Assembly (NCBI GenBank): GCA_963580285.1 | Contig: OY757026.1 | Location: forward strand, 65,349,396 to 65,413,395 | Direction of reading: 5' to 3' | Source: Lucinisca nassula | Lineage: Eukaryota; Mollusca; Bivalvia; Lucinida; Lucinidae | Length of the DNA stretch: 64,000 nucleotides | Shown: piece after piece, positions 13,661 through 32,965 of the stretch | How the letters are laid out: every line of letters begins with the position of its first letter | How positions within the stretch are numbered: the first letter of the stretch is position 1 | Position numbers and translations under genes: made by a program | Notes under the pieces: generated by a model | The model's input: the letters and a program-made list of their open reading frames with translations, nothing else | Database searches by the model: none | Told to the model about the DNA's origin: nothing

Positions 13661-13869
13661 ATGTCTCTCAAAATGGCGCATCTTAAGTGCTTTTTCGGAC
13701 TCTTAGCTTTAATTTATTTGACAAATGTAGTATTTTGTGAAGAAACAGAGATGAAAATAGAAGTAACTCAAAAAGCAGAAGGCGATTGTGCAAGAAAATC
13801 TAAGAAACATGATTTAGTTACAATGCATTATACAGGAATGTTAGAAGATGGAACAAAATTTGATTCAAG
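13661..13869 (+). CDS. FKBP14: FKBP14 exon 1: signal peptide and start of FKBP domain
   Basis: Residues 1-69 plus two bases of codon 70. Two in-frame starts exist. ATG at 13661 gives MSLK before the hydrophobic segment. ATG at 13673 has A at -3 and G at +4, a better Kozak context, and still leaves a full signal peptide (HLKCFFGLLALIYLTNVVFC). The first is used here, but either gives the same mature protein. The FKBP domain begins near residue 32 with KIEVTQK. HYTG (56-59) and KFDS (66-69) are core isomerase motifs. The donor is AAG|GTAAGA, and the intron (5810 bp) is phase 2. Confidence 0.9.
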
Positions 13870-13955
13870 GTAAGAGAAATTACCATATGGAAGTGTTGAC
13901 GTCTCTAAAGATTTTCTTTAGACAAGATTAAAAAATATATGTAATTATTGTCCAT

Positions 13956-14130
13956 TTAATGTACCTCATTATATGTCAATGAAATCAATAGATCGGTGAC
14001 AGCTGTTGTTATCATCAAAACCGCAACAGCTGATTTTGCCATACTGGTTAACATGTAAAACTGCACTAGCATTGCTTTAAAATCTACAAAAGGAAACATT
14101 TGAACATAAAGAACACACTGTGTATGACAG
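13956..14130. other. Intron 1 sequence, nothing recognised
   Basis: AT-rich intron sequence between exon 1 and the first SINE, apart from a short CAGCTGTTGTTATCATC / AACCGCAACAGCTG inverted repeat near 13998-14034. Confidence 0.4.
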
Positions 14131-14430
14131 CGCCCGCACATCGGGGCTTGAAGAAAAAGATGGGCTGCATGATGCTTCCTCGCAGAGCTGAAACCGACCC
14201 GCACACGAGTACTGGTAAACCGCTTAGTAGGATATAAGCCTTCTCAGGCAAAGCGGTGCGGGTCGGCCCGTCCATGTTTATAAACTCTATAGGTTTCATT
14301 GGACGGCAGGGCTTGAGATGTCATTTCATCTCAATGTCGGGTAAAAGTCCCACCAAATTTGAAGCAATGTCTCCAAAATGACCTTTACAGTGTTGACGGG
14401 GACGTTAAACCTCAAATCAAAACAAACAAA
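14131..14430 (+). mobile_element. SINE-C copy in intron 1
   Basis: Full-length, GAGTACTGG subfamily, in the same orientation as the gene. Confidence 0.85.
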
Positions 14431-14591
14431 TATAAATTATCGTTGTTGGTTGCAGTTTATAAAGCTGAAAGTATTGAACCTCCTATGTTGCTAATTAATA
14501 TGCTTCCTTTTGTGAACCAAACATTTCTCTCTAATTTCCAAGTTGGGGTTTCCGGAGTGATCATTTGATGGTATGTGAATTGACAAGCGCA

Positions 14592-14803
14592 TTAACCCTT
14601 ATCTTGCTGTTCACGACTACCCCTATCTTTACAAACAGCGTAGATCCATATCAGATGGCTTCTGAAGAAGCCATCTGATCAGGATCTACACTGTTTGGCA
14701 TTCAGTTTATGAATTTGTAGCAATAAATTACATCAAATAATTTGATTGGTTGATAGACTTAAATGAATGTGGCTTAAATGAATATTCAGCAAGATAAGGG
14801 TTA
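14592..14803. mobile_element. FB2 palindromic MITE in intron 1
   Basis: The ends TTAACCCTTATCTTGCTG and CAGCAAGATAAGGGTTA are inverted repeats of 17 bp. The inner hairpin is CAGATGGCTTC/GAAGCCATCTG. It is the best-kept FB2 copy of the window. Confidence 0.85.
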
Positions 14804-14843
14804 GGTGGTGTGCATCTACTGAAAAGATATGTGCGACCACGCC

Positions 14844-14907
14844 GACCAGCGAAGACATAGACCAGGCTGCCATTGGGCGGGCAGCCTGGTCTCTGTCTTC
14901 GCTGGTC
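14844..14907. repeat. Hairpin GACCAGCGAAGAC
   Basis: Arms of about 28 nt (GACCAGCGAAGACATAGACC / GGTCTCTGTCTTCGCTGGTC) surround a short loop. A third, partial arm follows at 14918-14940, so the unit may have been duplicated. Confidence 0.8.
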
Positions 14908-15322
14908 TACGGCAACCTGATCTAAGTCTTCGCTGGTCTCATAAGCGTTCTGTAGAAACTTGGGCGCGTGATCAGTCTATAGTCCCTAAGACATGTTCAT
15001 CCACATAGCCTGATCGGCGTATTCACTGGTCGTATAAACAGCCGATAGTTCATTGTCTTTCCAAAAAGCGTTTCGCGACGTTTCTGACCACACCGTCCCG
15101 ATTCTAGGGCTTAGTTAAGTCTTGGTTGGCCTTATATGTCGCAAGTGTGCCCTGACCATTTATCGAAATAATATGTACCAACGCCAACAACAATAACTGA
15201 TAACAAGTTGTTAATCAGCAAAAATTACGCTGACCTATTGTGAAAAATGACATATGTTCTGAAGTTGTTTTATCAAGAGAGAGAACAACAGCAGCTGACA
15301 TTTCTAACCATTTTCAACCATA

Positions 15323-15606
15323 TCATTAGGGTAACACATCCGTGTGATATAGTGCATTTTTCCATACCTCAAAAATGGTATTTTTTATGAAATTTGTGAT
15401 AGTTTTCTTATTTATACTCTAAACATAGGTTTTGGGTACTCGTTAGAACCGCCTCAATGAGGCGGTTCTAACGAGTACCCAGAAACTATGTTTTTGAGCA
15501 GAAATAAGGAAAATGGTGTTTACCCCCGTAAACCCCAGGTTTCTCCATATAAAGTGGGGTTTAGGGGGGGAGGGGGTCTTTATTTCACGGGCTTGTTCAC
15601 GTGATG
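15323..15606. mobile_element. FB1 palindromic MITE
   Basis: It runs from CATTAGGGTAACACATCCGT to CACGGGCTTGTTCACGTGAT, with the palindrome ACTCGTTAGAACCGCCTC / GAGGCGGTTCTAACGAGT in the middle and GTAAACCCCAGGTTTCTCC beside it. Confidence 0.85.
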
Positions 15607-15781
15607 TGCGATCTATAAATGTTTTCCCTAATAGGGAATATAAAACCGATTTAATTTCCATATTTGATTATCTTAACATGTCCGGGAAATAAACACCCCT
15701 TTATGCCCTACTTAATTAGAGACAACTGGGGTTTACACGGATACTCATTATTTTTGTTTCACAAAATCATATGCTTGAAAG

Positions 15782-15842
15782 AAACAGTGTAGTCCCAGAA
15801 CAGACGCCGCGTACAAGGGCGTCTGATCTGGGTCTACACTGT
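15782..15842. repeat. Palindromic CAGACGCCG core
   Basis: Same hairpin family as 11877-11943, with a diverged tip. Confidence 0.7.
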
Positions 15843-16029
15843 ATATATCCCCCAAAATCGAACACCCGGTATTTATAGCTTAATCCCAAACTGGTAAATA
15901 TATTTTCACCGCTTTGTGTATATTTTATGACAGCTTAGTATTATATCTAAATATATCTAATGATAGTAATGATATTAAACAAGCTAAATCAGCGGTAATT
16001 TAACCGGGACTTAATCGCCTTATCACGAG

Positions 16030-16032
<3 letters not shown>

Positions 16033-16113
<81 letters not shown>
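16033..16113. repeat. (CT)n microsatellite
   Basis: About 40 uninterrupted CT units in intron 1. Confidence 0.95.
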
Positions 16114-16116
<3 letters not shown>

Positions 16117-17310
16117 AGCAATACAGTTAACGAACCACACTTTTAGTACATTTTCTCGTAATGTTAGCTGCATCTTTCTCATAATATTGGTATATTCATT
16201 AAAGCAACCCCGGTTAAGTGATTTCTTTCTCTTTGGTTTGGTTTACGGCCCTTTCAAGATTATTTCACTTACATCGAACAGATGTGTGCGATAATCGGAA
16301 TACTCGGTGATGAAAGCACCCGACATTCCGTTGTATAATCTTTGGCACGTGACCCCGAGCGAAGCTCGAATCCGCTGTTGTGAGATGAAGAGACATCGCC
16401 CTCTGAGGCACGCGCAGTCTGGTCAGGGGTCTTTGCTGATCGTTCATATCAAATTGCACCATTTCCTGTGCACAGTCTAAAATTATGTTCATTAACGGAA
16501 TTTATGAGTTATTTATGTTCTTTTGCATGAACTAGCGTCTAATATACTATGGTTCAAAATGCCATGTACCATAACTCATAATATTAAATAGTATCGAAAA
16601 GTTTGAATGATCCGTTTTTGTGATAAATATTTTAGATAGTAGTAATTTTGTGAATTATCTAATCTAACTTTGACGAGTTCTAATTTCCCAAACGAGACGA
16701 ACATCGTTAAATAAAACCGAGCCTTATATTGAATGTGTGTGTGTGTGGGTGGGGGGGGGGGGGGTGGGGGAGATCAGCATTTCTGCTGTTTCTGTTCAAA
16801 ACATGAAAAGAGAAGTGTGAAAACGCCAGATCCATGTTTTTCTTGATGGCTAAAACGAAAACAAACTGCCACGTGTACGTCGAATAAAACGTCGCCACAT
16901 TCACTATAGGAATGTTTTATTTCGTTGTCATAGTGTCAATGTCATGTACGCTCCAGTGCCCGCGGGCAAGACACATCCGTCATTCTAAATGATTAATTTT
17001 AACCGGGGCTGGAGAAAATAGTATTTATTAATTAGGCTCTGCGAAGACAAAGACGAGACTTCGAATTTGCGCAGCATTGTTCGCAAACACACGTTGCCAT
17101 TTGGGAGGCTATACAACAAAAAAGTAATTCAGGCACCAAGCAGTATTCGCGCATGCGCATTTCACTGACGTTTAAGGCGCGATGGTCCCTTTTAAAAAGT
17201 GTGAACCATTTTTATGGTGCTTTTTTCCTTCGACATTTATCAATTTAATAAATAAAATATCAGTATAAGGTCCATCTATTTGCAAAATAAATAAATAAAT
17301 ATAAACGTTT
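16114..17310. other. Intron 1 sequence, largely unassigned
   Basis: The segment 16215-16500 begins with GGTTTACGGCCCTTTCAAGA, which resembles 60655-60690 and may be a further SINE tail on the minus strand. A GTGTGTG/poly-G run lies at about 16735-16770. I see no exon. Confidence 0.35.
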
Positions 17311-17324
17311 ACCTAAGATATTCT

Positions 17325-17654
17325 ACCGGCCCCGATAGCTCAGTTGGTAGAGTGTCCGCTCCGGGGAACGGGAGGTCACGGGTTCGATCCCGAGCCGCGA
17401 CATACCAAAGTCAATAAAAATGGTACTAGCTGCTCCTCGCTTGGCACTCAGATTTACGGGGTAGAGCTAGGACTGGTCGACCCAGTGTCAGGATAATGTG
17501 ACTGGGTGTGGTATCATGTTATGTGTCTGGGACATGATACTTCAGTGAGGCAGCACTATAAAAGTGAGCATTGAGCTCCCTGTCGCAACCAGACACCGTC
17601 GTGATATGACTGAAATATTGTTGAAAGCGACGTTAAACCCGAATTCACACACAC
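17325..17654 (+). mobile_element. SINE-A copy, intact, with 14-bp duplication
   Basis: The head CCCCGATAGCTCAGTTGG (A box) and GGGTTCGATCCCGAGCC (B box) is tRNA-like. The body contains GTCAGGATAATGTGACTGGG, and the end is AAAGCGACGTTAAACCCG plus a CACACA tail. ACCTAAGATATTCT (17311-17324) and ACCTAAGATTTTCT (17655-17668) are the target-site duplication. It is a retroposon of 330 bp, not a tRNA gene. Confidence 0.92.
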
Positions 17655-17845
17655 ACCTAAGATTTTCTGAAAGGAGTAATTCTGTTTAATGAACCATGGT
17701 AATCCGGTCTAATCCTGCCCAACAATCCACCCCATTTAGAGAGCGGTTGTGGATTCTGGTAAGAATTGCCCCAGATGCTAAAGCACCTACAATCTGTACT
17801 TTGCAACACGGAGAAGATACTACTACTACTACTACAACAACAACA

Positions 17846-18095
17846 GCTGAATCCGGCCCATGCACTAGTACTGGTAAACCGCTTAGAGGATCTAAGCCTG
17901 TCCAGGAACCGCGGTGCGAGGCGGACCGTCCATGCTAATAAACCCTATTGGTTTCATTGGCGACAGGGCTTGAGATGTCATTTCATCTCAATGTCGTGTA
18001 AAAGTCCCACAAAATTGGAAGCAACGTCTCCAAAATGACCTTTACAGTGTTGACGGGGACGTTAAACCTCAAATCAAACAAACAAAAAACAACAA
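17846..18095 (+). mobile_element. SINE-C copy within trinucleotide repeats
   Basis: This 5'-truncated CTAGTACTGG-subfamily copy is flanked on the left by (TAC)n/(CAA)n and on the right by (CAA)n/(CTA)n. The matching trinucleotides on both sides may be its duplicated target. Confidence 0.8.
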
Positions 18096-18306
18096 CAACA
18101 ACTACTACTACTACTAAATTAGTGATTTATCATCATCATCATTATCATCACATTGTGATATATATGTTTTCATTGTTGCAAAATGAGTCTGGTAAAGTTC
18201 ACTGAGAAATAGTTACCCCTGGAAAAATATTGATCACTTTTATTTTGTCTGGACGTTTGGGTATTTCCTCGAAAAGAATATATTATACCTCTTTATAACT
18301 TATAAC

Positions 18307-18499
18307 CATTAGGAAAACATGTCGTTGTGAAATAATGGCGTCCAACATGGTGTCAGAAAATGACAAATATTAGGTAGAAATTGTAATATCTTTCTTGTTT
18401 TTGCTTCAACATAGATTGTGGGTGCTCGTAAACCCCATCCTTCTCTATATAAAGTGGGGTTTAGGGGGGTCTTCGTTTCACGGACTTGTTATCGTGATG
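18307..18499. mobile_element. FB1 MITE with the palindrome deleted
   Basis: The left part stops inside ATAGATTGTGGGTGCTCG and continues directly into TAAACCCCATCC. The hairpin arms are lost. The right end CACGGACTTGTTATCGTGAT is intact. Confidence 0.75.
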
Positions 18500-18679
18500 A
18501 ACTGTTAATGAGGTCCAAACCAGAAACCGTGTTAGTTAAACAACCGTGTTATATACCAAACAAAAATAGATTATATAGAAAAATTACCATAGTCTGTATA
18601 TTATTGGGATCCATCTTGAAACCACGTTGTATTCAATAACATGTTATAGCAAAACGTGTTATAACGAGGTTGTGGTGTA

Positions 18680-19085
18680 TTTTGTTTTCTTGCACACCAG
18701 ACAAGGAAATCCGTGATTTTAACCTGGGATAGAAATTTATGTTCTGACCCTGTTGTTCCGACCCCAAATCGAATATAATCGCATGTTTGATAAATGCACT
18801 AGTTGATTACAACCTCATGCGCGGCGTCGTCATGCGTGACGTCACTAAACATTTCTGTTGTGTCATCACAAAATGGCGGACGTCGGTAACCGAAGTGACA
18901 GCAGCATTAAAAATTCGCAATAGAAATGGAAGGTATGCAAGAAAAAGAATCCAATATGGGTGTGAGGGGTGGATAGATAAATCCGTCCCTCGGGATCACT
19001 GTCCGGCATCACTCGGCAAGCCTCGTGATGCCGGACAGTGTCCCTCGGGACGGATTTTTCAATCCACCCCTCACACTCATATAAG
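18680..19085. mobile_element. Foldback element, copy 2
   Basis: A 124-bp hairpin at 18957-19080 (ATGGGTGTGAGGGGTGG ... CCACCCCTCACACTCAT) has inner arms with CACTGTCCGGCATCAC. Its flank at 18680-18905 matches 8940-9180 in reverse. Confidence 0.75.
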
Positions 19086-19291
19086 ATTCTTATATTATGC
19101 TACCATATCGAAAAAAACAACAACAAAAAACAAGAACAAACAACGAAGGACATGATTTTGACAGATCCCTAAGGCAATATATATATATTTTTTTACAAAC
19201 ATATTTATGACTACAGCAAACTATACTATTGGAAATTAATTTTATAAACGACACTTTTAATCTGCAGACCAGTACAGATATTAAAGCAACT

Positions 19292-19340
19292 GGTCCTCGC
19301 ACATCGGGGCCTGGAAAAATAGATTGGGCTGCATGATGAT
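19292..19340 (+). mobile_element. SINE-C head fragment
   Basis: Only CGCACATCGGGGCCTGG and GGGCTGCATGATGAT remain. Confidence 0.6.
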
Positions 19341-19679
19341 TAGTATTAACTAAAATTAGTATAAACTAAACTAAAAGAAAAACCAAAATGGTACGTTTAG
19401 GCATTGTTAAGTATATCTCATTTTTAACATATTAACTTGATAAATTGCAAATTATAATAACATTTCATTTTCTGCGCCCATTGTCAGCTTAACGAACACG
19501 CTATTTGTGGACGATTATTGGTGGCCAGAATGTTAACTGTGAGTCAATGCAGTATCTAGTTCAGTGGTATTTTAGCTGGAAAATGCGGTGCGTTAGTTTT
19601 TCAGACCTAGTGTTAAAATCATAGATCCAATCATTGTGAAGTACGCACATCGAAAACCTTTATGTTTTGTCTTTTCCAG

Positions 19680-19825
19680 TTTTGAAAGAAACGAACCTTT
19701 CCAGTTTCAACTAGGTATAGGTCAGGTGATTAAGGGCTGGGAACAGGGATTACTAGATATGTGTCCTGGCGAAAAGAGAAAACTAACCATCCCGCCACAT
19801 ATGGCTTACGGTGAAAAGGGAGCAG
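19680..19825 (+). CDS. FKBP14: FKBP14 exon 2: core of the isomerase domain
   Basis: Residues 70-119 (codons 70 and 119 are split across introns). It encodes [20 protein letters not shown] and then [20 protein letters not shown]. The conserved pocket residues Phe77, Val86, Ile87, Trp90 and Tyr113 are present, as is Cys98, the partner of Cys43. The acceptor is CTTTTCCAG|T and the donor GCAG|GTATGA, with exit phase 1. The ORF continuing into the intron stops soon after, as expected for unspliced sequence. Confidence 0.92.
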
Positions 19826-19894
19826 GTATGAGCAATTATTCATTTCATCGTGTTAACAAGTCCATGGTATGAACATATATGAAAAAAATCCAAT

Positions 19895-20139
19895 TTATAC
19901 ATGTTATATAGAGAAAACTGGGGCTTACAGTGGAAAATACTATTTCTTTTATTTCTGCCCAAAGTCATAGGTTGTGGGTACTCGTTAGAACCGCCTCAAC
20001 GAGACGGTTCTAACAAGCACCCGCAACCTATATTTGGAGTGTAAACTGAGAAAATTTCACAGATTTTCATAGGAAACATAACCCAGGTTGAGGTATGAAA
20101 GAACGCACTATGTCACGCGGATATACTATCGAAATGTGA
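19895..20139. mobile_element. FB1 MITE in intron 2
   Basis: The palindrome is at about 19965-20035 (ACTCGTTAGAACCGCCTC / GAGACGGTTCTAACAAG), with ACTGGGGCTTACAGTGG to the left and CACGCGGATATACTATCG to the right. The ends have diverged. Confidence 0.75.
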
Positions 20140-20457
20140 TTCTGGCCATATTTGGCGTATTACAATGTCTACATATTCTTATCCAGATTCAATTCCAGAC
20201 ATTGCTGTCATATTCAAGGGCAATATGTAGTTTTGATCGCATATTCCAGTCGAAGCTACTGATCCACAAAGAGGGTTGACGCGTCATTAAACTGGAAATC
20301 ATCATCATCAAGATGATCGTAAACCTCTTCAGCCATGCAATCCAAAACAGACCCCTGTGAAAAAGTGTACACCCATACCAGATGGCTCTCATGATGAACC
20401 GTCTCATCTGGAGCTGCACCTTATACTGTTCTCTTTGTGAGGTTTGATGTTTGACTG

Positions 20458-20723
20458 CATCACGTAAACAAGTCAGTGAAATGAAAAACCTCATAAACCC
20501 CACTTTATATGGAGAAAACTGGGGTTTACGAGGGTAAACATTAATTGTTTTTATTTCTGCTCCGAGACATAGGTTGTGGAGACACTTTAGTACCGCCACA
20601 ATGAGCATCAACAACTCATGTTTTGAGCATTTATAAGAAAAATATCACGTATTTTCATCAGAAAAGTAGCCATTTTGGTGATGTGAAAAATGCTCTATGT
20701 CGTACGGGTGTGTTATCTTTATG
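20458..20723. mobile_element. FB1 MITE in intron 2
   Basis: The ends are CATCACGTAAACAAGTCAGT and ACGGGTGTGTTATCTTTATG. The central palindrome is decayed (GTACCGCCACAATGAGC). Confidence 0.75.
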
Positions 20724-20729
20724 GGACAG

Positions 20730-21545
20730 CCCCGCCCATTGGGGCTTGAGGAAATAAATGGGCTGCATGATGCGTCCACGCAGAGCTGAAACCGACCGCA
20801 CACCAATACTGGTAAATTGCTTAGAGGATCTAAACCTGCCCAGGTAAAGCGGTGCGAGTCGGGCTGTCAATGCTTATAAACCCTATTGGTTTCATTGGGC
20901 GACAGGGCTTGAGATGTCATTTCATCTCAGTGTCGGGTAAAAGTCCCACACAATTGGAAGAAACGTCTCCAAAATGACATATATAGTGTTGACGGAGACG
21001 TTAAACCTAAAACTAAACAAACAAAACAAATCTCAACAGGAACCTCTGTTTGCATCAATGATTATGTCCAAATTCAGAAAAGGAATATCCCGCTTGAGAA
21101 ACTCATTAGTTTTGTAAACTGCAGCTCGATTATTGGTCCCCGCCCGTCGGGGCTTGAAGAAATATATGGGCTGCATGGTGCTCCCACGCAGAGCTGAAAC
21201 CTACCCGCACACGAGTACTGGTAAACCGCTTAGAGGATCTAAGCCTGCCCAGGCAAAGCAGTGCGAGTCGGCCCGTCCATGCTTATAAACCCTATTGTTT
21301 TCATTGGGCGGCAGGGCTTGAGATGTCATTTCATCTCAATGTCGGGTAAAAGTCCCACAAAATTGGAAGCGACGTCTCCAAAATGACATTTACAGTGTTG
21401 ACGGGGACGTTAAACCCGTCAAATCAAACAAACAAGGAATCTCTGTTTGCAACAATGATTATGTCCGAATTCAGAAAAGGATTATCCCGATTGATAAACT
21501 CATTTATGAAAAGATAACAGTTTTGTAAACTGCAGCTAGATTATC
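20730..21545 (+). repeat. Tandem duplication of SINE-C plus ~100 bp
   Basis: SINE-C copies at 20730-21028 and 21137-21437 are each followed by the same ~100 bp (TCTGTTTGCAWCAATGATTA ... TTTTGTAAACTGCAGCT). This is best read as a ~405-bp segmental duplication in intron 2, rather than two insertions. Confidence 0.75.
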
Positions 21546-21648
21546 GAAATATATTCATTTGGCACTTTCAGGCTTACAGAATTCAAGTTTGTTTATTTGT
21601 TGTCATCGCAAATTAGTTATATCAGCCTTTAAACAAACTTATTTCCAG

Positions 21649-21779
21649 GCGACACTATTCCACCCGATTCCACACTTGTATTTGACGTGGAACTAGTACA
21701 GGTACAAGACGGAGAAGTTCCCCCAAATGTATTTAAAGAGATCGATACCGACGGAAACAAGGAATTGACACATGCCGAA
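21649..21779 (+). CDS. FKBP14: FKBP14 exon 3a (alternative)
   Basis: It completes codon 119 and encodes residues 120-162: DTIPPDSTLVFDVELVQV, a linker, then NVFKEIDTDGNKELTHAE. It supplies the last strands of the FKBP fold and the whole first EF-hand loop (Asp151, Asp153, Asn155, Thr159, Glu162). The strand FDVEL is the usual FKBP form, so 3a is probably closer to the ancestral exon. The acceptor is TTATTTCCAG|GC and the donor GAA|GTAAGT, a strong site. Length is 131 nt, entry phase 1, exit phase 0, the same as exon 3b. Confidence 0.9.
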
Positions 21780-21833
21780 GTAAGTACGCTGGCAAGCGGA
21801 TGAATACCAAGTTCAAAGATGGCGCCTTATTTG

Positions 21834-21967
21834 CATTATCTGCTGGTTCCTAGTCTGAAGATTATCAGTGTTGGGAAAACAGGTAACCAGACCCCCCCCC
21901 CCCCCCATGGGGGTTACCTGTTTTTCCAATATTGATAATGTGTAAGCTGGGAGCCAGCAAATAATAC
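21834..21967. repeat. Hairpin in the intron between exons 3a and 3b
   Basis: The arms begin ATTATCTGCTGGTTCCTAG and end CTGGGAGCCAGCAAATAAT, with a C/G-rich tip (ACAGGTAACC ... GGTTACCTG around a run of 14 C). It starts 55 nt after the exon 3a donor. It may be a MITE or an RNA structure; the sequence does not decide. Confidence 0.7.
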
Positions 21968-22553
21968 AAAAATGATGAATATTAATTTGGACAAAGATTT
22001 TTAACTGCAGTCAAATGAAAAACTGAAAACGTTTTGGAACTAGAAAGATAGAAAATTTAGATGTATTCTTTCAGTAGGAAGCGCTGTTACACATTGAAAA
22101 TGAAACAAAAATTGCCAAAAAAAAAAACAACAAAAAAAAAAAAAAAAAAACAAAAAAAAAATGTGGTTTGAAAATTTCTTTGTTCAAATTATGAAAGGGT
22201 AATTATATGTTGTGTCGACAGCAAATTTTAATGACTACCTTTGACGGAAAAGTCTGCATTTATGCAGAGTTCTAAATTTTCTTTTGAAGATAACTAACCA
22301 TTAAATCAGGAAACATGATTGCCCAACAGACGGCATTCAGTTTCTTGAAAATAAGGCTTCCATATGAACGGTCTACTTGGCATTGTGGCAGTCTTATTTT
22401 CTGCATAAAACTGAATAATGTTGTCTGCCAAATTTTGATTTGTGTTGGAAGGGTTAAAAAAATAACACAACATGTAATTATGTATCAAGCATTTTTCGCT
22501 TCATCAAATTTTATGTTCACATTTCCTTTCAATCCCATTCCTTTCTTTTCAAG

Positions 22554-22684
22554 GTGATATTATTCCGGGTAACGCTACCCTTGTTTTTGAATTGACATGC
22601 GTCCATATTGCGGATGGACCTATTCCACCAAATGTGTTCAAACTTATTGACACGGACAAGGATAAGAAAATAACTAAAGAGGAG
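22554..22684 (+). CDS. FKBP14: FKBP14 exon 3b (alternative)
   Basis: It is a second version of exon 3, 774 bp downstream of 3a. It encodes DIIPGNATLVFELTCVHI, a linker, then NVFKLIDTDKDKKITKEE. It is identical to 3a at 23 of 43 residues with no gap. EF-hand ligands Asp151, Asp153, Asp155, Thr159 and Glu162 are intact, so it is under selection, not decayed. Differences include Ile121 for Thr, Gly124 for Pro, a sequon Asn125-Ala-Thr127 and Cys134. The acceptor is TTCTTTTCAAG|GT and the donor GAG|GTAACT, weaker than that of 3a. Splicing 3a to 3b shifts the frame and meets TGA at 22593. Confidence 0.88.
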
Positions 22685-22814
22685 GTAACTCTTATGGTTT
22701 TGGGGCTGCTACATTTAATTATTGAATAAACGCTTTACCTTTCCAAGTTATCAGAAGTTGCAAAGAATATATTATAGTAGAGAAGGTATTTAGTTTTACA
22801 AAAAATACTTTCCA

Positions 22815-23063
22815 TTTACGAAATACCACCAAAAAAATACACATTTTTGATTCAAAAAAAAAGATATGTTTTTTATTTCTGCTCAAAATATAGATTGTGG
22901 GTACTCGTTAGAACCGCCTCATCGAGGCGGTTCTAACGAGTACCCACACTCCATATTTTAGAGCAGAAATAAGAAAAATAAGGTTTACCCCTGTAATCCC
23001 CAGTTTTACTACATAAAGTGGGATTCAAAGGGGTCAAAATTATATAGGCGTGTTTTCGTGATA
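22815..23063. mobile_element. FB1 MITE in intron 3
   Basis: Palindrome at about 22877-22968; right end ATATAGGCGTGTTTTCGTGA. The left terminus has diverged. Confidence 0.75.
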
Positions 23064-23526
23064 GCTGCAAGATTCTAGGACAGAAAACAAATATATTTGA
23101 AGTACAGTTCAAATTTGTTTGCCTTAAATAACCAACAAAGAAGCAGAACTTTCAAGTTTTCAAATGAAATTTTGGTCTTTCTCGCGCAAACCCCCCTGGT
23201 CTAGTGGTTAAACAAGATAATGCTTGAAGATACTAATCGTATGAACACTGTAAACGAAATAGATTTTGCTAAACAGATAGATAAAAAAGAAAAAAAAAGA
23301 GAGAACTTTTAAAGGGATATATAGATATAATTTCAGACAAGGCAATTTAAATATTTTGCCTCCTTTAAATCGACAGGGATCTCGTCCTTTAAGAGTATCG
23401 CCTTTTTCTTGGTGTTGGGCGTACTTAAGGGTATGGGAACACTTGTCACATTTTTCCGCCATTTTTCAAAGGGACACAACTTTCGGGACTTCCTGTTCGC
23501 TTTTCTATAAGCCATGTCACACTGAA

Positions 23527-23645
23527 AAGGGGGTCTACTCTTAAAGTAAAGAATTTGCTCCTCGGGAGCAAATGCTCTTAAGTCTACTCTTAAAGGAAAG
23601 AATTTGCTCCTCAGGAGCAAATTCTGTTCTTTAAGAGTAGACCCC
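23527..23645. repeat. Hairpin cluster GAATTTGCTCC
   Basis: GGGTCTACTCTTAAAGTAAA and its reverse complement TTTAAGAGTAGACCC bracket two inner GAATTTGCTCCTC/GAGGAGCAAATTC-type palindromes. Confidence 0.75.
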
Positions 23646-23760
23646 TATTGACATGGGAGACAAAAATACTTTTGCAGGAGTTGCCTCCCCTGAAGATGTT
23701 CCCATTCCCCTTAAAAACTATCAGGTAGTCACAAAGTGGACTATATGTATTCCTATTTTG

Positions 23761-24025
23761 CATCACGTGAACAAGTCCGTGAAATGAACACCCCCTTACA
23801 CCCCACTTTATATAGAGAAAACTGGGGTTTACGGGGGTAAACAATATTTTTCTTATTTCTGCTCCAAGACATAGGTTGTGGGTACTCGTTAGAACCGCCT
23901 CAATGAGGCGGTTCTAACGAGTACCCACAACCTATGTTTGAAGTATAAATAATAAAAATATCACAGATTTTCGTCAGAAAAGTAGCCATTTTGGAGATGT
24001 ACCGCACGGGTGTGTTATCGTAATG
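23761..24025. mobile_element. FB1 MITE in intron 3
   Basis: Ends CATCACGTGAACAAGTCCGT and ACGGGTGTGTTATCGTAATG. The centre is a long perfect palindrome around AACCGCCTCAATGAGGCGGT. Confidence 0.88.
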
Positions 24026-24502
24026 GAAAAGCCCCTTTTTGAAAAATGGTTCACATAGGGAAATAGCTTTTCAAATGATCCTACGTCATTTTGATTCTTT
24101 ACAACTTCTGATTTTGAGGGTGGTGTTTTATTGTGCTATCCATTTGTGTCCGTACGTCACCTTACGTATCTCCCAATTGCTATTGTGATTTTAGGCCCTC
24201 ACGTTGGCTTTTCACCGCCATTGGCAGACTTACTTTCCCTCAAATGCATCACGTGAACCTTTAGCACATGGGATTCCCTTTCAGATTCGATCCTTCCCTC
24301 CTTCCCTCTACAGAAGTTGCAGACGACAATGTAGTGGAGTCTGTCTCTCTAGCGACACCCGGGGACTAATCTGCCATGACACATGTCCTAGGGAATCATT
24401 GTCCTTCGTCGTGTGGTCGTGTCACCAGTAACGGTTGGAGACTGATTATTGAGCGCTGACACCTAGTTGGATGAGATGGCTTCGTCGGCTGCACAGTTCT
24501 GA

Positions 24503-25228
24503 CTAAACTCCGTTCAGAAAATCTGAATCATCGATTTTTTCGTTTCTTCCTTTAAATACTCATTTTAGCCCATACATCTCTGTGGGAAGGTTTTAGACCT
24601 GACCCTCCGCCGACTTCTCCAACATGTCATATGCCTCTGCGACAGTCAGGGAAGGCTGAGATTATTTGGAGAAAATTGCAAAACAAAGAAATGAGACCAC
24701 AGACTAAGTCCATTTAACGATGATTGTCAGGTAAAATAATAAATATTCAAATCCATGTGATGCACTTTATAAATAGACATGCAGTTACGACACACCTTAC
24801 ATTCGAATGGCTAGATAGAGGCTCACTAGGAACGGGGAGCCACTAGCGTAATGTGCCGTCAACAGTGGTCAAAAAGAAATATACCGATATTGGATGTGGT
24901 GTCACAGCTAATGATTTTCCATGAAGTGATCGTGCAAATAAAACATATACGCCCTTGTAATTTACAAGAATAGTAGCCACTTCTATATATGGTTTAAAAG
25001 GGTGTGTCGAACCTGTCAGAATGTCAGTCTGTGGAAGAAAATTTAGATTTTGCACTTTTCTCCAAATAATCACAGACTTTCCTGGCTATCGCAGAGGCAT
25101 ACGAATTGCTGGAGAAATCGGCGGAGGGTGAGGTCTAAAACTCTCCCATAGTGATGTATGGGCTAAAATGAGTATTAAACGCGGGAATCGAAAAAATCGA
25201 TGATTCAGATTTTCTGAACGGAGTTTAG
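24503..25228. mobile_element. DNA element with ~190-bp inverted ends
   Basis: CTAAACTCCGTTCAGAAAAT at 24503 has its reverse complement ending at 25228. The similarity continues inward for about 190 bp on each side (GCCCATACATCWCTRTGGG, TTATTTGGAGAAAA), around a ~350-bp unrelated centre. There is no transposase. Confidence 0.8.
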
Positions 25229-25686
25229 TGTTCATGTGGTCGAGGGTTCGAGTCTCATAGGGTCTGGCACCATTCATTGTTTCATTGAGATCGCTGTTAA
25301 AGTATTTTCTATTGTCATCCCCACCCCACCTACTACCACCCCACCACCCCAGCACTTCTGATGTTTTGAGAAGGACAGTTGCCTGTTACTGGCGAAAGAA
25401 TATTATGAACCGTACTGGTAATGTGTCGGTAGGTAAAATAACCGACACGATAATATTGTTTTCTGGGCCGTGAACAAAACCATACGTATAATATATTGCA
25501 TAGTCATAGGAGACAGTTTATATTTTTCAACAATTCGATTTGCACGCTACTTCATTTACAGTGTATTTTAACAATTACCATATGTTGTTTTTCAAACGAT
25601 TGGATAAAGTTTAAGTCATTTTATTACTTTCTTGCACCTGTAAGTATATATTATATTATTGCACCTTTTCTACATGGTACTTGTGT

Positions 25687-25931
25687 TTAACTCATAAAAA
25701 TGCCATTCACGACAACTGTCGCCTGTTTTGTCGTCTGCCGGTTACTTTAAAAGTCATTTTGCATACAGTGTGGACCCGGATCAGACTGCTCCTGTAGGAG
25801 CAGTCTGATCTGGGACCACTCTGTTTGCCTGTATGCAAAAATATTTTAAAAAGTTTGCAAAAAGAATCAGCAGATGACATAAGCAGACGACATTTTCAGC
25901 TGTATTTTTTCTCGGCGACTTAAGGGTTTAA
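25687..25931. mobile_element. FB3 palindromic MITE
   Basis: It opens TTAACTCATAAAAATGCC and closes GGCGACTTAAGGGTTTAA. The hairpin GGATCAGACTGCTCCTG / CAGGAGCAGTCTGATC-type core lies in the middle. Related copies are at 62154-62385, about 61763-61990 and 32142-32215. Confidence 0.75.
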
Positions 25932-26014
25932 TGTTTACTGGGGTAAAGAATATTTAATTTTATTTTTTATTTCATTTGTATTGATCCACAAAAAAAAAAG
26001 ATTTGATTGATTGA

Positions 26015-26303
26015 TTGATTTGAGGTTTAACGTCCCCGTAAACACTGTAAAGGTCATTTTGGAGACGTTGCTTCCAATTTTGTGCGACTTTTACCCGACA
26101 TTGAGATGAAATGACATCTCAAGCCCTGTCGCCCAATGAAACCAATAGGGTTTATAAGCATGGAGCTCCGCCTTGCACCGCGGTTCCTGGACAGGCTTAG
26201 ATCCTCTAATCGGTTTACCAGTACTAGTGTGCGGGCCGGATTCAGCTCTGCGTGGAAGCATCATGCAGCCCATATATTTCTTCAAGCCCCTATGGGCGGG
26301 GCC
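26015..26303 (-). mobile_element. SINE-C copy, CTAGTACTGG subfamily
   Basis: Near full length on the minus strand; its tail side has become (GATT)n. Confidence 0.85.
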
Positions 26304-26436
26304 ACCATAAAAAAGAAATATATAAAAACATTAGTACAAATAAATGTAATCGAGAAGAAGGTCATGAGACTTTTATAGAATCTGCACTACATAACGATTA
26401 TTTATTTAAGAAATAAGTTTTATTTTTCTGCTGTTC

Positions 26437-26717
26437 CATTTCGAACACACGCTTATACAAATACATTTTCAATTTTACCGCCAAAAAAACAAAGATTTTA
26501 AGATGAAAAATTGTGATAATTTTCTTATTTCTGCTCAAAATATAGATTGTGGGCACACGTTAGAACCGCCTCATCGAGGCGGTTCTAACGAGTACACACA
26601 ATCTAGGATTTTAGAGCAGAAATAAGAAAAATAAGGTTTACCCCTTTTAACCCCAGTTTTACCATATAAAACTGGGGTTCAAGGGGGTCAGAATTATATA
26701 GGCGTGATTTCGTGATG
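26437..26717. mobile_element. FB1 MITE in intron 3
   Basis: Ends CATTTCGAACACACGCTTAT and ATAGGCGTGATTTCGTGATG; palindrome around AACCGCCTCATCGAGGCGGT. Confidence 0.85.
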
Positions 26718-27075
26718 ATGAAAGTATGTACGCAGTCGGTCGCGTGTAAAGTGAAGGGGTTCATGTAAACTTTGCTAACGACCCGCTGTGGTTCATACTT
26801 TCATGAAAAGCAGAAAAAAATATAAGTTTATTTTTTATATTTACATTCTTTGCGAAATTAAATGCTTATAGGGCAAACTTTTAAAGCGGAAAAACTTTTA
26901 CACGCTGTTTTTCTACAAAGAGCGGAACAGCATTGACGTCACATACGCCAGTAGAGAGTCATGGTTTAGACTGACGTCACTTGACATCACTGAAAATCAT
27001 GCGACTCGGTGCACTCATGGAAGTATTAACTACGTTGTTTTCTACAGGTTTACGTTAGACTTTACACTGAAAATG
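26718..27075. repeat. Dispersed repeat shared with 61080-61400
   Basis: TTCATGTAAACTTTGCTAAC, GCTTATAGGGCAAACTTTTA and TTTACACTGAAAATGTAAAT recur in the same order at 61080-61400. No coding sense is visible. Confidence 0.65.
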
Positions 27076-27602
27076 TAAATATTTAACAATTAATTTTATA
27101 AAATTAATAGCATTTTCTTTTTCTCCTGGAAAATTATCTACATATATTGCAATCAAACTTCGATAACTGGTTGGTTACATCAAAGTATCAGAAAATATTT
27201 ATTTACCTGAAGAAACTTAGAGGATTTTATCACTACGCGAGTTCATATGGACTTTATGAAACGAGAAGTTTCATATATACGAAATGGCGACGAGGGTGAG
27301 AGTCTGGTAATCATAAAGCGCTTTTAAATCGAATTTTCATTGTCGAAGAATTTCAGAAGGAAAATAGGGTTGTCACGGACATCGTCTTGACGTTTCGCGC
27401 CACTAACTTTTATTACACGTGTGGTCATAGCATTATATGACTTGACGTTCTCCACCAATTTACAGCGACGTTATATGATTAATAGAGAATACCATGTTCG
27501 TGTCTTTTGATATTAAGTTTATCAGGCAAGGCTTCGAGAACGCTTTTACTACGGAATCTCGAGGCATGCCGAGCGATTCTACATGCGTTCTCGAAGCCGA
27601 GT

Positions 27603-27840
27603 TTATACCTTGTAAACTCTTTAAATTGGCAATTTACGATCACTTACAGATTGTCCTTAGTGCGTCCCAACATTCCGGTGCGGCGATAATCGATCAGTAT
27701 ATTTACTATCATCTGACTGTCAGTTTATAACTTGTAAAATCTTTAGATTGGCAATTTACGATCACTTACCGATTGTCCTTAGTGCGTCCCAACATTCCGG
27801 TGCGGCGATAATCGATCAGTATATTTACTATCATCTGACC
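27603..27840. repeat. 120-bp tandem duplication
   Basis: Two copies with the shared block TTGTCCTTAGTGCGTCCCAA and CGGCGATAATCGATCAGTAT differ at only a few bases. Confidence 0.85.
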
Positions 27841-28049
27841 GTTATTTTCTTTTGATAATTTGTAAAGAATTTTTTCCGATTTTTCTAGTAATAATAACAT
27901 TTTGGCCATTTTTTCCGGTTGTCCGGTTCATTCAAAAAGGTTCATTCAATGTCCCGTTGACGTGATAAAGCTCACTTGTCCTGAGATAGCATATCTTTAT
28001 CAGGTCAATGTGTTACAATGCACTATATATAGGGAGTAACTGATAAATA

Positions 28050-28330
28050 GAGCGTCTTACACGAGTGGTCATTTGATATGAAATTTATGAAACGAGCCTT
28101 GGGCGGGTTTCATAAATTTTATATGAAATGACCACGAATGTAAGATTCTGTTTATCATATGACCACTTTAAACTGGATTTCATCGCCTTTGAATTTGAGT
28201 TTTTCCACAAAAAATACTTGGTTGACATGGACGTCGTCATGACGTTACTTAATCCCGCCAAAGTTTCATTGCTCTCCTTCGGCGAGTTTCATAAATTTCA
28301 TATGAAATGACCACGAGTGTAAGATCCTTT
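28050..28330. repeat. Hairpin pair TTTCATATGAAATGACCACG
   Basis: GTGGTCATTTGATATGAAAT and its reverse complement form one hairpin at about 28062-28137. A third arm follows at about 28283-28320. A related hairpin is at 36105-36190. Confidence 0.7.
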
Positions 28331-28542
28331 TTGTATCAGATATTTAGATGAAACCTCATAAAAATGTAAAGCGTCATAACAGGCGGTTCAGATTGAAACA
28401 ATAAAGATGAAACCTTGAATATTTTTTATCAAAACTGATCCATGTACATGCATTAATAATGATGCAAGGACTAATATAGCGTCCCTTTGACTACATTATT
28501 TTGACACACATCACATGTTTGATGTATGTGCAGTTGCTATGG

Positions 28543-28845
28543 CCCCCGCCCATCGCGGCTTGAAGAAATAGATGGGCTGCATGATGCTTCCACGCAGAGC
28601 TGAAACCGATCCGCACACGAGTAGTGGTAAACCACTTGGAGGATCTAAGCCTGCCCAGGCAAAGCGGTGCGAGTGCGAGACCATCCATGCTTATAAACCC
28701 TATTGGTTTCATTGGGCGACAGGGCTTGAGATGTCATTTCATCTCAATGTCGGGTAAAAGTCCCACAAAATTGGAAGCAACGTCTCCAAAATGACCTTTG
28801 AAGAGTGTTGACGGGGACTTTAAACCTCAAAACAAACAAACAAAA
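28543..28845 (+). mobile_element. SINE-C copy in intron 3
   Basis: Full-length, GAGTAGTGG variant of the main subfamily. Confidence 0.85.
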
Positions 28846-28987
28846 TGTGTAGTGGCGGGGCATCATGCAGTGCTTGCAGCGCCTTTATTTTGCACGCCTA
28901 TTGCTGATGAAATATGGTGAGTAGGTTAAATATCGTTAAATCAGTCAGCAAATCAGACTAGGTTAATCAGTCTTTACAACTAAAAAG

Positions 28988-29265
28988 GGCCCATAGGGGC
29001 TTGAAGAAATATATGGGCTGCAGGATGCTTCCACGCAGAGCTGAATCCGGCCCGCACACTAGTACTGGTAAACCGCTTAGAGGATCTAAGCCTGTCCGGG
29101 AACCGCGGTGCGAGGCGGACCGTCCATGCTAATAAACCCTATTGGTTTCATTGGGCGACAGGGCTTGAGATGTAATTTCATCTCAATGTCGGGTAAAAGT
29201 CCCACAAAATTGGAAGCAACGTTTCCAAAATGACCTTTACATTGTTGGCGGGGACGTTAAACCTC
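28988..29265 (+). mobile_element. SINE-C copy, CTAGTACTGG subfamily
   Basis: Near full length. The tail reads GGCGGGGACGTTAAACCTC and passes straight into the foldback duplication at 29268. Confidence 0.85.
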
Positions 29266-29267
29266 AA

Positions 29268-30227
29268 TTCTAACACAGCGCGCCTATATAGCCAATGGAA
29301 AGGAACTGTGAATTATTATGCAACAAATCACACCTCAGAAGAGCGTGATAGGTGACGTCATTAAAAACTCCAAATTTATTACGTCACTAGTCGATTTCCT
29401 TGACGTTAGACGGTGTAACGTCATTTTCTCGCATCGAAAACGTTTGAAAATGATATAAATGCATGTGTTCCAGTCGACAATTTTAGCGGGATTTCTTCTT
29501 ACAATGGCGAAAAGTTGTGAGATTTTGAAGGAAACAACAACATTATTGCCGATTTTCAGCCTGTTAGAATCGAAATAGATCAGCTCTAGCCAGTGATTTG
29601 TTGGGTAATAAATCACAGTTTGTCGGTCAGTTGTAAGTAGACAAATCACGCGCGCTACGCGCTTGTGATTTGTCTACTTTACAACTGACCTCCAAACTGT
29701 GATTTATTACACAACAAATCACAGCTAGAGCTGATCTATTTCTTAATTCTAACACAGCGCGCCTATATAGTCAATGGAAAATAACTGTGTTTTATTCTGC
29801 AACAAATCACAGCTCGGAAGAGCGTGACGACTGACGTCATTAAAAACTGCAAATTTATGACGTCACTAGTCGATTTCCTTGACGTTAGACGGTGTAACGT
29901 CATATTCCCGCATCGAAAACGTTAGAAAAGGATATAAATACTTGCGTTTCAGTCGATAATTTTAGCGGGATTTCTTTTAACAATGGCGAAAAAGTTGTGA
30001 GAATTTGAAGGAAACAACAGCCTTATTGCCGAGTTTCAGCGTGTTAGAATCGAAATAGATCAGCTCTAGCCAGTGATTTGTTGGGTAATAAATCACAGTT
30101 TGTCGGTCAGTTGTAAGTAGACAAATCACGCGCGCTACGAGCTCGTGATTTGTCTGCTTTACAACTGACCTCCAAACTGTGATTTATTACACAACAAATC
30201 AAAGCTAGATCTGATCTATTTCTTAAA
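29268..30227. repeat. Tandem ~480-bp foldback unit, two copies
   Basis: Units at 29268-29752 and 29753-30227 start ATTCTAACACAGCGCGCC. Each ends in an imperfect palindrome of about 165 bp (AAATAGATCAGCTCTAGC ... GCTAGAGCTGATCTATTT). A non-palindromic part holds GACGTCA and GACGTTAGACGGTGTAACGT. The copies differ by scattered substitutions. Confidence 0.85.
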
Positions 30228-30341
30228 TCAAACAAACATTTCATCTACATATGACTTTTTCCGTGTATGCCACCTTGTCTCGTATTTTGATTTTTTGTCG
30301 AGCCTAATTTTAGCATAATGCGCTGTTGGAAAGCAGTTTTC

Positions 30342-31012
30342 TACGGAACCCGGGAAGGGACATGATTTTTTTTTTATTTTATAAGTTGTTCGCACAAGAT
30401 AATATCTTGTGCGGACAAGATATTATCTTGTGCGGACAAGATATTATCTTGTGCGGACAAGATATTATCTTGTGCGGACAACATATTATCTTGTCCGCAC
30501 AAGATAATATCTTGTCCGCACAACATAATATCTTGTCCGCACAAGATAATATCTTGTGCGGACAACATATTATCTTGTGCAGACAAGATATTATCTTGTC
30601 TGCACAAGATATTAAGTTATGCGAACAAGATATTATCGTGTCCGCATAAGATAATATCTTGTCTGCACAACATAGATCTTATGCGCACAAGATATTATCT
30701 TGTCCGCACAAGATATGATCTTGTCTGCACAAGATAATATCTTGTCCGCACAACTTCCCAAGATCTATGTTGTGCAAACAAGATAATATGTTGTGCGGAC
30801 AAGATATTATCTTGTGCGGACAAGATATTATCTTGTGCGGACAAGATATTATGTTGTTCGCACAAGATAATATCTTGTGCGAACAAGATAATATCTTGTG
30901 CGAACAAGATAATATCTTGTCCGCACAAGATAATATGTTGTCCGAACAAGATAATATCTTGTCCGCACTCCATAATACAAATAAAAAATCATGTCCCTTC
31001 TCGGGTTCCGTA
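30342..31012. mobile_element. Inverted-repeat element with hairpin minisatellite core
   Basis: The ends CTACGGAACCCGGGAAGGGA + CATGATTTTTT (from 30342) and the reverse complement ending at 31012 are near-identical ~32-bp inverted repeats. Between them, about 27 units of 21 bp fill 30391-30970. Each unit holds the 17-nt palindrome ACAAGATATTATCTTGT joined by CGG/CCG spacers. Near the middle the units are replaced by CATAGATCTTATG and CAAGATCTATGTTG, which mirror each other. Six-frame ORFs such as ILCGQD repeats on both strands are a by-product. Confidence 0.85.
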
Positions 31013-31193
31013 GTTTTCCGTCCATTTATTCTTTCATTCGTGAATTCGTTCGTGCGTTCGGCCATCGACTTTTGCAACAACCCTAGCATTCACCTTAATG
31101 CCTTGTTCCATTTCTCAATAACTGTCTCAGCTTCATTCATGACAGTCAGTACAAACTCGCATCTTTGGACGGTGACTTTATTTAAAGCATCTA

Positions 31194-31541
31194 CAGTCGA
31201 ACTTCAATGGCTCGAACACCTTTGGGACCTCGAAAATCTGTTCGAGACATGGGTAGTTTGAGCCACAGAGGCTTAGTGCCAGGAGGCATACCGAGGTACT
31301 TTGTGACATATTTTCGGTGTCCTGTAATGAAAATGTATGCTGTGTGTACTAAATTAGAATCGCCTCATCGAGGCGATTCTAATGAGTACATACAGCATAC
31401 ATTTGCAAGATAAAAGACGAAAGTCTCCTAAATTATCTCGCACCATTTCTTATGTAGAGGGCTCCCCTAGGGGCTAAAGAATGGGTTCGACTCAGTCATG
31501 GTAAACGAGCCATCGGTGTTCGAGCCATCGAAGTTCTACTG
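31194..31541. mobile_element. Tc1/mariner-type MITE
   Basis: CAGTCGAACTTCAATGGCTC and its reverse complement (ending GAAGTTCTACTG) are terminal repeats, with TA on each side. An inner palindrome ATTAGAATCGCCTC / GAGGCGATTCTAAT lies near 31349-31390. A second copy is at 40678-41285. Confidence 0.82.
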
Positions 31542-31689
31542 TATATACTTTGTCAAATATTGTGCAAACTTCAGTAGCGCATACTGATCTGTCAATGCCC
31601 ATTTCTCAATAAACAATTTGAGCTACACCAGTGGGTCATGACACAAACCTTCGTCTAGGGAAGACTACTTTAATCCATTTATTTACTGA

Positions 31690-31743
31690 CCTAAAATCGT
31701 GTTGACTGGGCCGTTAAACTCCAATTCAAACAAACAAACAAAA
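31690..31743 (+). mobile_element. SINE-B tail fragment
   Basis: GTTGACTGGGCCGTTAAACT plus (CAAA)n. Confidence 0.6.
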
Positions 31744-32141
31744 CCAATATATGATAATCGAAGCTTCCATCTAGTAAGTTTGAAGTGGCCCATTTCCAAT
31801 AATAGGGGTGTCAGATTTGTTAATTTTACAAAAATGAATGTGCTTTAAGCAAACATCAAAAAACGCCGCGAAAATCTACATCTGAAAATGTCGTCTACTT
31901 ATGTCACGGCTGGTAAACTCGTAAGGGGTAAACGCCGGTTATGCACTCAAAATCCTTACGGGAACTCCCGGTTATGACTTCCGAGGCCACAAACATGTCA
32001 ACAAACATGTGAGTGTTCCCGATACATGATTTGTAGTCATTTTGTAAACATATTTTGAGAAATCGGGCAACGCTATTCTCAACAACTTTCATTTCGTCTG
32101 CTGAATTTCTTGCAAACTTAAGAACTTAAGAATATTTTGCA

Positions 32142-32797: not shown

Positions 32798-32965
32798 ATT
32801 TCAGCCTATTTAGTCAAACAGTCAGAGGAGCATGGACAGAAAATGGACAAAGACTCCAAGGAACATCTCGAGATAATTGAAAATATATTTGCTCATGAAG
32901 ATAAAGATAAAGATGGGGTTATCTCCCATGATGAATTCAGTGGTCCCAAACATGACGAATTATAA
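32798..32965 (+). CDS. FKBP14: FKBP14 exon 4: second EF-hand and HDEL
   Basis: Residues 163-217 and the stop TAA. It begins ISAYLVKQSEEHG, the outgoing helix of EF-hand 1. The second EF-hand loop DKDKDGVISHDE (197-208) is canonical, with Asp at 1, 3 and 5, Gly at 6, Ser at 9 and Glu at 12. The protein ends GPKHDEL, the KDEL-receptor retrieval signal found in this family. The acceptor is TTTTTCAG|ATT, entry phase 0, which fits either version of exon 3. Confidence 0.93.
   Translation: MSAYLVKQSEEHGQKMDKDSKEHLEIIENIFAHEDKDKDGVISHDEFSGPKHDEL

Follow-up and report, generated by a model that had tools for sequence, protein, structure and literature searches.

One gene of the clam Lucinisca nassula probably gives rise to two ER isomerases of the FKBP14 type, each 217 amino acids (aa) long, by way of an old tandem pair of exons 3 of which one or the other is spliced in, with the reading frame enforcing the choice. 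The gene lies in a stretch of 64,000 nucleotides (hereafter the window). Its comparison with related sequences suggests that both versions of the exon are old and conserved and that they are probably used singly, so that one gene would make two forms of the enzyme.

The gene is complete and covers positions 13661-32965 of the + strand, with four coding exons plus the alternative exon 3. Its features are listed below (slashes mark exon borders; intron letters are in lower case).

13661..13869, + strand: exon 1, with the ATG, a hydrophobic signal-like N-terminus and the start of the FKBP domain (to FDS); from tblastn and reading frame, donor AAG/gtaaga.
19680..19825, + strand: exon 2, core of the FKBP domain; from the FKBP_C match and the splice sites ttccag/ and CAG/gtatga.
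21649..21779, + strand: exon 3a, end of the FKBP domain and EF-hand 1 up to the last loop residue; 131 nt, /GCGAC...GAA/gtaagt, 3a-type VQVQDGE; resembles the exon in the open reading frames (ORFs) P0121-P0123.
21780..22553, + strand: intron between 3a and 3b, 774 nt; contains a hairpin with 59-nt arms at 21830-21970.
22554..22684, + strand: exon 3b, the alternative exon 3; 131 nt, /GTGAT...GAG/gtaact, 3b-type VHIADGP; clusters with the exon-3 segments of Mya, Mercenaria, Dreissena and Mactra.
22593..22595, + strand: TGA reached if both 3a and 3b are included, 89 nt upstream of the end of 3b.
32798..32965, + strand: exon 4, the last coding exon, with EF-hand 2, HDEL and the TAA stop; from tblastn and frame, acceptor ttttcag/.
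32878..32880, + strand: TGA reached when exon 2 is joined to exon 4, inside the last exon.

Both predicted isoforms contain the FKBP domain (PF00254; E 2e-40 with 3a, 9e-38 with 3b) and an EF-hand pair over the cut-off (PF13499), and both have HDEL, an ER retention signal, as their C-terminus. The N-terminus is hydrophobic, as judged by eye. The mature part of the protein aligned from end to end with human FKBP14 (FKBP22; PDB 4MSP) at E 5e-44, and the order of FKBP domain, two EF-hands and HDEL is the same in the two proteins. The identification of an FKBP14-type ER isomerase, previously made from the letters of the window, is therefore upheld by a full gene model with all of these parts.

Every figure that the sequence-only reading had given for two equal-length versions of exon 3 was reproduced. 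Both are 131 nt long, enter in phase 1 and leave in phase 0, are separated by 774 nt and agree, aligned ungapped, at 23 of the 43 residues. At the nucleotide level, 76 of the 131 positions are identical, and the splice sites of both exons are intact, with AG before and GT after each. Either 3a or 3b would be joined between exons 2 and 4. A protein of 217 aa is predicted whichever is used, and the two predicted isoforms share 197 of their 217 residues; their differences would be confined to the final FKBP strand, the linker and EF-hand 1. Inclusion of both exons runs into the TGA at 22593 and skipping of both into the TGA at 32878, the latter with a predicted product of 145 aa that lacks EF-hand 2 and HDEL. 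Hence, it is correct that a full protein needs one of the two exons, as had been claimed, and from this frame we infer that 3a and 3b exclude each other.

For a chance test, we collected all stretches of 131 nt between an AG and a GT on both strands of the window (n = 428), 52 of which were open in the phase of exon 3. Scored against the 3a peptide, 3b reached 124, whereas the best of the other 50 open stretches reached -9 (mean -46, SD 14). A tblastn search of the window with 3a found 3b at E 8e-14. No further copies of exons 2, 3 or 4, and no second exon 4 of the oyster type described below, were found in the window by tblastn.

The differences between 3a and 3b are unevenly distributed over the codon positions. 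First positions are identical in 27 of 43 codons, second positions in 34 and third positions in 14 (second versus third position, Fisher test, p 3e-5). The non-synonymous distance was 0.38 and the synonymous distance was not computable, as saturation would predict, while the two segments with 200 nt of flanks per side aligned in short words only. Because third positions have been randomised and second positions retained, the pattern indicates that 3a and 3b have each been maintained by selection at the protein level over a long time.

When proteins were searched with isoform a, 7992 candidates were scored and 7957 matches obtained, of which the best 120 were taken. Related loci in bacterial genome contigs (two) and viral contigs (six) are microbial or viral records and were left out of the comparison. 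The nearest full-length named proteins among the best 120 came from Mya, Mercenaria, Dreissena and Mactra, with 66-71% identity. Mya and Mercenaria belong to the Imparidentia in the NCBI taxonomy, and we take Dreissena and Mactra to belong there as well. By its protein, the window thus most likely comes from a heterodont, imparidentian-like clam. Mercenaria has two FKBP14-like loci, P0009 (LOC123538911) and the more diverged P0018 (LOC123526289), each with an exon 3 of the 3b type. The exon-3 segment was extracted from 98 of the 120 proteins (length <= 260 aa). The motif VHT-x-x-GPVPP, near the VHIADGPIPP of 3b, occurred in nine of the best 120 proteins, namely those of Mya, Mercenaria (two), Dreissena and Mactra and four others. 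Moreover, the full ORFs P0005, P0010, P0011 and P0014, on contigs of 947-1571 bp, show a 3b-type exon spliced to exon 4. Since such contigs are too short for an intron structure of this kind, they are probably spliced cDNA, possibly retrocopies. A looser version of the 3a motif, V/L-x-V/I-QDG, was present in 12 of the best 120 proteins, including those of oysters, Haliotis and Patella, for which reason 3a would be called the more ancestral-like sequence and 3b the derived type of several clam families.

A protein search confined to the 3b region gave no candidate; this does not count as absence, since P0009 has four 5-residue words in common with that region and the word filter of the search must have been stricter. 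A search with two 57-aa exon-3 peptides yielded three proteins from four candidates.

P0121: 90 aa, on three contigs of up to 7.4 kb; 37 of 44 residues identical to 3a.
P0122: 53 aa, on an 894-kb contig; 33 of 44 residues identical to 3a.
P0123: 96 aa, on a 3.1-Mb contig; 35 of 44 residues identical to 3a.

A run of 22 consecutive residues, ending VQVQDGEVPPNVFKEIDTD, is identical in 3a and these three sequences. All three enter the exon via LFPG, and the acceptor region of 3a in the window reads TNLFPG, in common with P0121 and P0122. They leave it via E-V-S, which is the reading of GAA/gtaagt in the window. Hence, they are best read as genomic ORFs through an unannotated exon of the 3a type with its splice sites, not as transcripts, and we infer that their hosts are clams. 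The previous interpretation as a tandem alternative exon of FKBP14 is strengthened by the 3b-type relatives and 3a-type ORFs found elsewhere, as regards both the identity of the gene and the pair, but its emphasis on the EF-hand loop needs changing (see below).

The duplication of exon 3 is probably older than the split of several clam lineages, as judged from a tree of 33 exon-3 segments. These comprised 28 chosen from the 98 extracted segments, P0121-P0123 and the window pair; the 70 others (without species name, from arthropods or, in some cases, from molluscs) were left out. Window 3b formed one group with the nine clam-type proteins at support 100/98 (33 rows and 23 rows), and window 3a was nearest to P0121. 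Forcing the four 3a types together cost 3.4 log-likelihood units in each row set (p 0.263 and 0.043). The 3a types may be a paraphyletic remainder, which is expected if 3a retains the older sequence. Given its 44 columns, the tree provides indications rather than proof. Six of these columns (18, 19, 20, 23, 39 and 42) separate the three 3a-type from the nine 3b-type sequences when the window rows are left aside. Window 3a has the 3a-type residue at columns 18, 19, 20 and 23 but carries residues restricted to the 3b type at columns 39 and 42. Window 3b has a 3b-type residue at columns 18, 20, 23 and 39 and matches neither type at 19 and 42; it has the 3a-type residue nowhere among the six. Columns 39 and 42 thus run against a clean division between 3a and 3b.

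A duplication private to this lineage, with 3b resembling other clams through convergence or by chance on a long branch, would account for some of these data, and we consider it unlikely rather than far-fetched. The 3b branch is indeed long (1.08 and 0.83), the tree has only 44 columns, and a clade of 3a with 3b was not firmly rejected, since forcing the two together cost 6.5 log-likelihood units with 33 rows (p 0.129) and 7.4 with 23 rows (p 0.041). The sharing of 3b-type residues by 3a at two of the six separating columns points the same way. However, the third codon positions are saturated (14/43), 3b has the 3b-type residue at four of the six columns and the 3a type at zero of six, and forcing 3b with all 3a types cost 9.8 log-likelihood units (p 0.047). 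Even a private duplication would leave the one-of-two reading unchanged.

Exon 3a could instead be a relic that is no longer spliced in, leaving 3b as the working exon. All nine listed full-length relatives of the clam type are of the 3b type, the 3a motif VQVQDG occurred in none of the best 120 listed proteins, and the acceptor of 3a is weak, with pyrimidines at 10 of 17 positions versus 16 of 17 in the acceptor of 3b. The absence of the motif may mean that 3a is uncommon, restricted to certain tissues, concealed by clustering or not used. The protein database was clustered at 90% identity, and isoform pairs may share one cluster, which weakens arguments from absence; the near-identical P0033 and P0037 nevertheless stand as separate entries. 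Against a relic stand the open frame of 3a, its two splice sites and the 37 residues in common with P0121, and 3a shares not only the 22-residue run of the four sequences but also the intronic acceptor stretch TNLFP with two of P0121-P0123. A reading frame kept over such distances is unexpected for a dead exon, and we regard the relic as improbable. The weak, purine-broken acceptor of 3a seems to be partly conserved itself, as a regulated site would look. Exon 3a would then be an expressed exon.

One-of-two splicing, which we prefer to a relic, would call for an active choice in which regulatory proteins probably act on the weak acceptor of 3a, with the frame as the only enforcement seen. The donors of 3a and 3b tie, with seven of nine consensus letters each. 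In combination with the stronger 3b acceptor, this means that the sites alone give no bar to joining 3a to 3b, and the acceptors would even favour that junction. All sites are GT-AG and, by eye, of the U2 type without a U12 look. The AG-free stretch upstream of 3b is merely about 64 nt long and hence gives no sign of a distant branch point. Neither at the 3a/3b sites nor in the 774-nt intron was there any sign of mechanical enforcement by a U2/U12 clash, a too-short intron or a distant branch point. In the available parts of a survey of human mutually exclusive exon clusters (PMC5740500), the limit for steric interference is an intron of 50 nt, which the 774-nt intron far exceeds. A U2/U12 clash is given there for 5 of 629 clusters and a too-short intron for 57 of 629, whereas 377 clusters (60%) contain lengths not divisible by three. 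The exons 4a and 4b of OGDH resemble the clam pair as alternatively used duplicates with differences in a calcium-linked motif. In OGDH, according to the parts of the source at hand, exclusion depends on distant branch points that lie close to the donor of a short intron (PMC7969005), in contrast to the longer clam intron with no such sign.

Folding of the 774-nt intron was better than that of 20 out of 20 shuffles (z -8), partly via the element-like hairpin at 21830-21970. The 59-nt arms of this hairpin are 80% complementary. It looks like a mobile element, and blastn found no second copy in the window. Region 19826-24000 contains 23 pairs of inverted repeats, many of which are palindromic elements able to fold on themselves. 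One 21-nt pair (20674-20694 and 22488-22508) would loop out 3a and would be a candidate for a competing RNA structure, but it is just one of many inverted repeats in this region.

Repeats are widespread in the window. A family of near-perfect palindromes with the core CGTTAGAACCGCCTC was found at 19966-20031, 22885-22959, 23869-23937, 26558-26590 and other positions. The core has 13 matches on the + strand and 14 on the - strand (up to two mismatches), and in the palindrome at 23869-23937 the 34-bp arms pair without a mismatch. These palindromes look like a mobile hairpin element. A dispersed, SINE-like repeat with the core TGAGATGTCATTTCATCTCAATGTCG (8 + and 3 - matches), frequently with the tail GACGTTAAACCTCAAATCAAACAAAC (5 + and 3 - matches; up to two mismatches), occurs at 1284, 13164, 17971, 20910, 21319, 26096, 28727, 41990 and elsewhere. 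The intron between 3b and exon 4 includes a tandem array of 27.5 copies of a 21-bp unit (TTGTGCGCACAAGATAATATC) at 30386-30968. Further downstream, arrays of 159-166-bp units (44162-45676, 54339-55571 and 56155-57419) occur along with arrays of 132-145-bp units (39642-40192, 48958-49828 and 59737-60138); they are reminiscent of bivalve satellite families of about 160 bp. An ORF fragment on the - strand (50928-51287) has a weak match to an Ulp1-type peptidase below the cut-off (PF02902, E 0.0012) and is perhaps part of a mobile element. ARAGORN indicated a tRNA-Thr (tgt) at 40859-40935 (+) and a tRNA-Pro (ggg) at 63887-63962 (-). Rfam gave no match at curated thresholds in the window, and hence the two may be tRNA-derived repeats.

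As a rule, transcripts are subject to nonsense-mediated decay if their stop codon lies more than 50-55 nt before the last exon junction. Inclusion of both 3a and 3b would shift the frame so that translation stops 89 nt upstream of that junction, making these transcripts an expected target of decay. Skipping of both would also shift the frame, and the resulting stop lies in the last exon, where it may escape decay and yield the 145-aa product. The first of these outcomes could also be the purpose of 3a, as a poison exon whose joint inclusion with 3b reduces the amount of protein. The position of the stop and the stronger acceptor of 3b agree with such a role. However, conservation of the protein sequence is not required of a poison exon, whereas 3a is conserved as a segment of FKBP domain and EF-hand whose phase fits exon 4. 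We consider it quite improbable that 3a acts as a poison exon instead of a coding one, although the two roles could coexist. Least probable is that 3b serves as an alternative last exon ending in the following intron, for the AATAAA at 22725-22730 and the in-frame read-through stop at 22727 just downstream of 3b stand against relatives whose 3b-type exon runs on into exon 4 and a KDEL-like end, and against a background of 16 AATAAA or ATTAAA words in the 11 kb scanned. Under one-of-two splicing, the choice is most likely enforced by the frame in combination with presumed regulatory proteins.

The effect of the exon swap on the protein was assessed with a structure model of the Mya protein (mean pLDDT 87.5, pTM 0.63). 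The best PDB match of this model was 4MSP, with a poor overall rmsd of 14 A that may reflect a different angle between the domains. The part encoded by exon 3 corresponds to Mya residues 112-155. These take in the final strand of the FKBP domain (121-132), the linker, helix 1 of EF-hand 1 (139-143) and the calcium loop, whose last residue is included. Glycine is usual at position 6 of an EF-hand loop. The sequence-only reading had held that both exons keep a complete EF-hand loop. This applies to positions 1, 3, 5, 9 and 12, which are D, D, N/D, T and E in 3a and 3b, but position 6 is K in EF-hand 1 of both and not glycine. Ligand-type residues at loop positions 1, 3, 5 and 12 were retained in 14 of the 14 sequences compared. 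Columns 18-23 correspond to Mya residues 129-134, the end of the strand and the start of the linker. It is thus the terminal part of that strand and the linker to EF-hand 1, and not the calcium ligands, that carry the run of type-separating differences followed by both window exons. For this reason, the swap is likely to alter the coupling and orientation of the EF-hand part rather than calcium binding.

The two window exons also differ in charge (-9 for 3a, -3 for 3b). A charge switch as a general feature of the pair was ruled out, since the 3b types of the nine relatives range from -5 to -10. The likely purpose of the swap would be a different joining of the EF-hand pair to the isomerase, here combined with a different surface charge, and through this a tissue-specific choice of substrates such as collagens. 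In the available parts of one study, EF-hand 1 is named as the better of two candidates for contact with collagen, with local charge as a determinant (PMC10607241). Disruption of the EF-hands of human FKBP14, as described in the available parts of the sources, left isomerase and chaperone activity in vitro unchanged (PMC10607241, PMC6965642), and for this reason a role in the choice of collagens is only a guess.

Alternatively used EF-hand exons are established in alpha-actinin. The exons 19a and 19b of ACTN1 and ACTN4 are tandem, alternatively chosen exons for EF-hand 1 in an otherwise identical protein, according to the portions of the sources at hand (PMC4435478, PMC9741552). Alpha-actinin is, however, another protein in another compartment than FKBP14. 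One of its versions does not bind calcium, as described in these portions, whereas 3a and 3b both keep ligand-type residues at positions 1, 3, 5, 9 and 12; a calcium switch of the alpha-actinin type, in which one version loses its ligands, was thus not found here. Furthermore, inclusion of both exons gives the brain isoform of alpha-actinin 1 in the accessible part of that report (PMC4435478), while in the clam gene joining the two breaks the frame. For human FKBP14, the part of the source at hand describes an exon exclusion responsive to loss of Argonaute, which is skipping, and mentions no tandem pair (PMC8370746). FKBP is not mentioned in the main text of two surveys of human tandem exons. 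The sequence-only reading knew of no published report of such an exon pair for FKBP14. This agrees with the open-access literature searched, including the available parts of PMC8370746, PMC9830730, PMC9741552 and PMC5740500, in which we found skipping of a human FKBP14 exon but no tandem or mutually exclusive pair. FKBP14 would be a new gene for such pairs.

A related case exists in oysters. The gene-model isoforms X1 (P0071) and X2 (P0021) of Saccostrea LOC134251605 likewise show a bivalve FKBP14 with two versions of one EF-hand. Their first 156 residues are identical, followed by two different C-terminal parts that both end in GPKHDEL, and the matching boundary suggests two last exons. In contrast to the window, which has a single exon 4, the swapped part in Saccostrea is the C-terminal one (EF-hand 2 and HDEL), while the exon-3 segment is the same. 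The X1 form is also found in Crassostrea (P0033, P0037, P0046 and P0055), and the X2 form in the close relative P0020. The exon for EF-hand 2 appears to have been doubled here in a separate bivalve line. We give roughly even chances to a wider scenario in which the exon-3 pair arose before the main imparidentian lineages split, with both copies kept by selection, while the other EF-hand exon was duplicated independently in oysters.

Two natural isoforms whose differences fall exactly in the EF-hand part, both under selection, offer a direct route to the role of that part. The nine listed full-length relatives of the clam type show 3b only, which suggests that half of the pair is missed where a single protein is annotated for each gene. 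If the wider scenario is true, the EF-hand cassette would be a repeatedly used splice switch of bivalves that alters the coupling between the calcium part and the isomerase, and this switch would govern the set of secreted proteins folded in each tissue.
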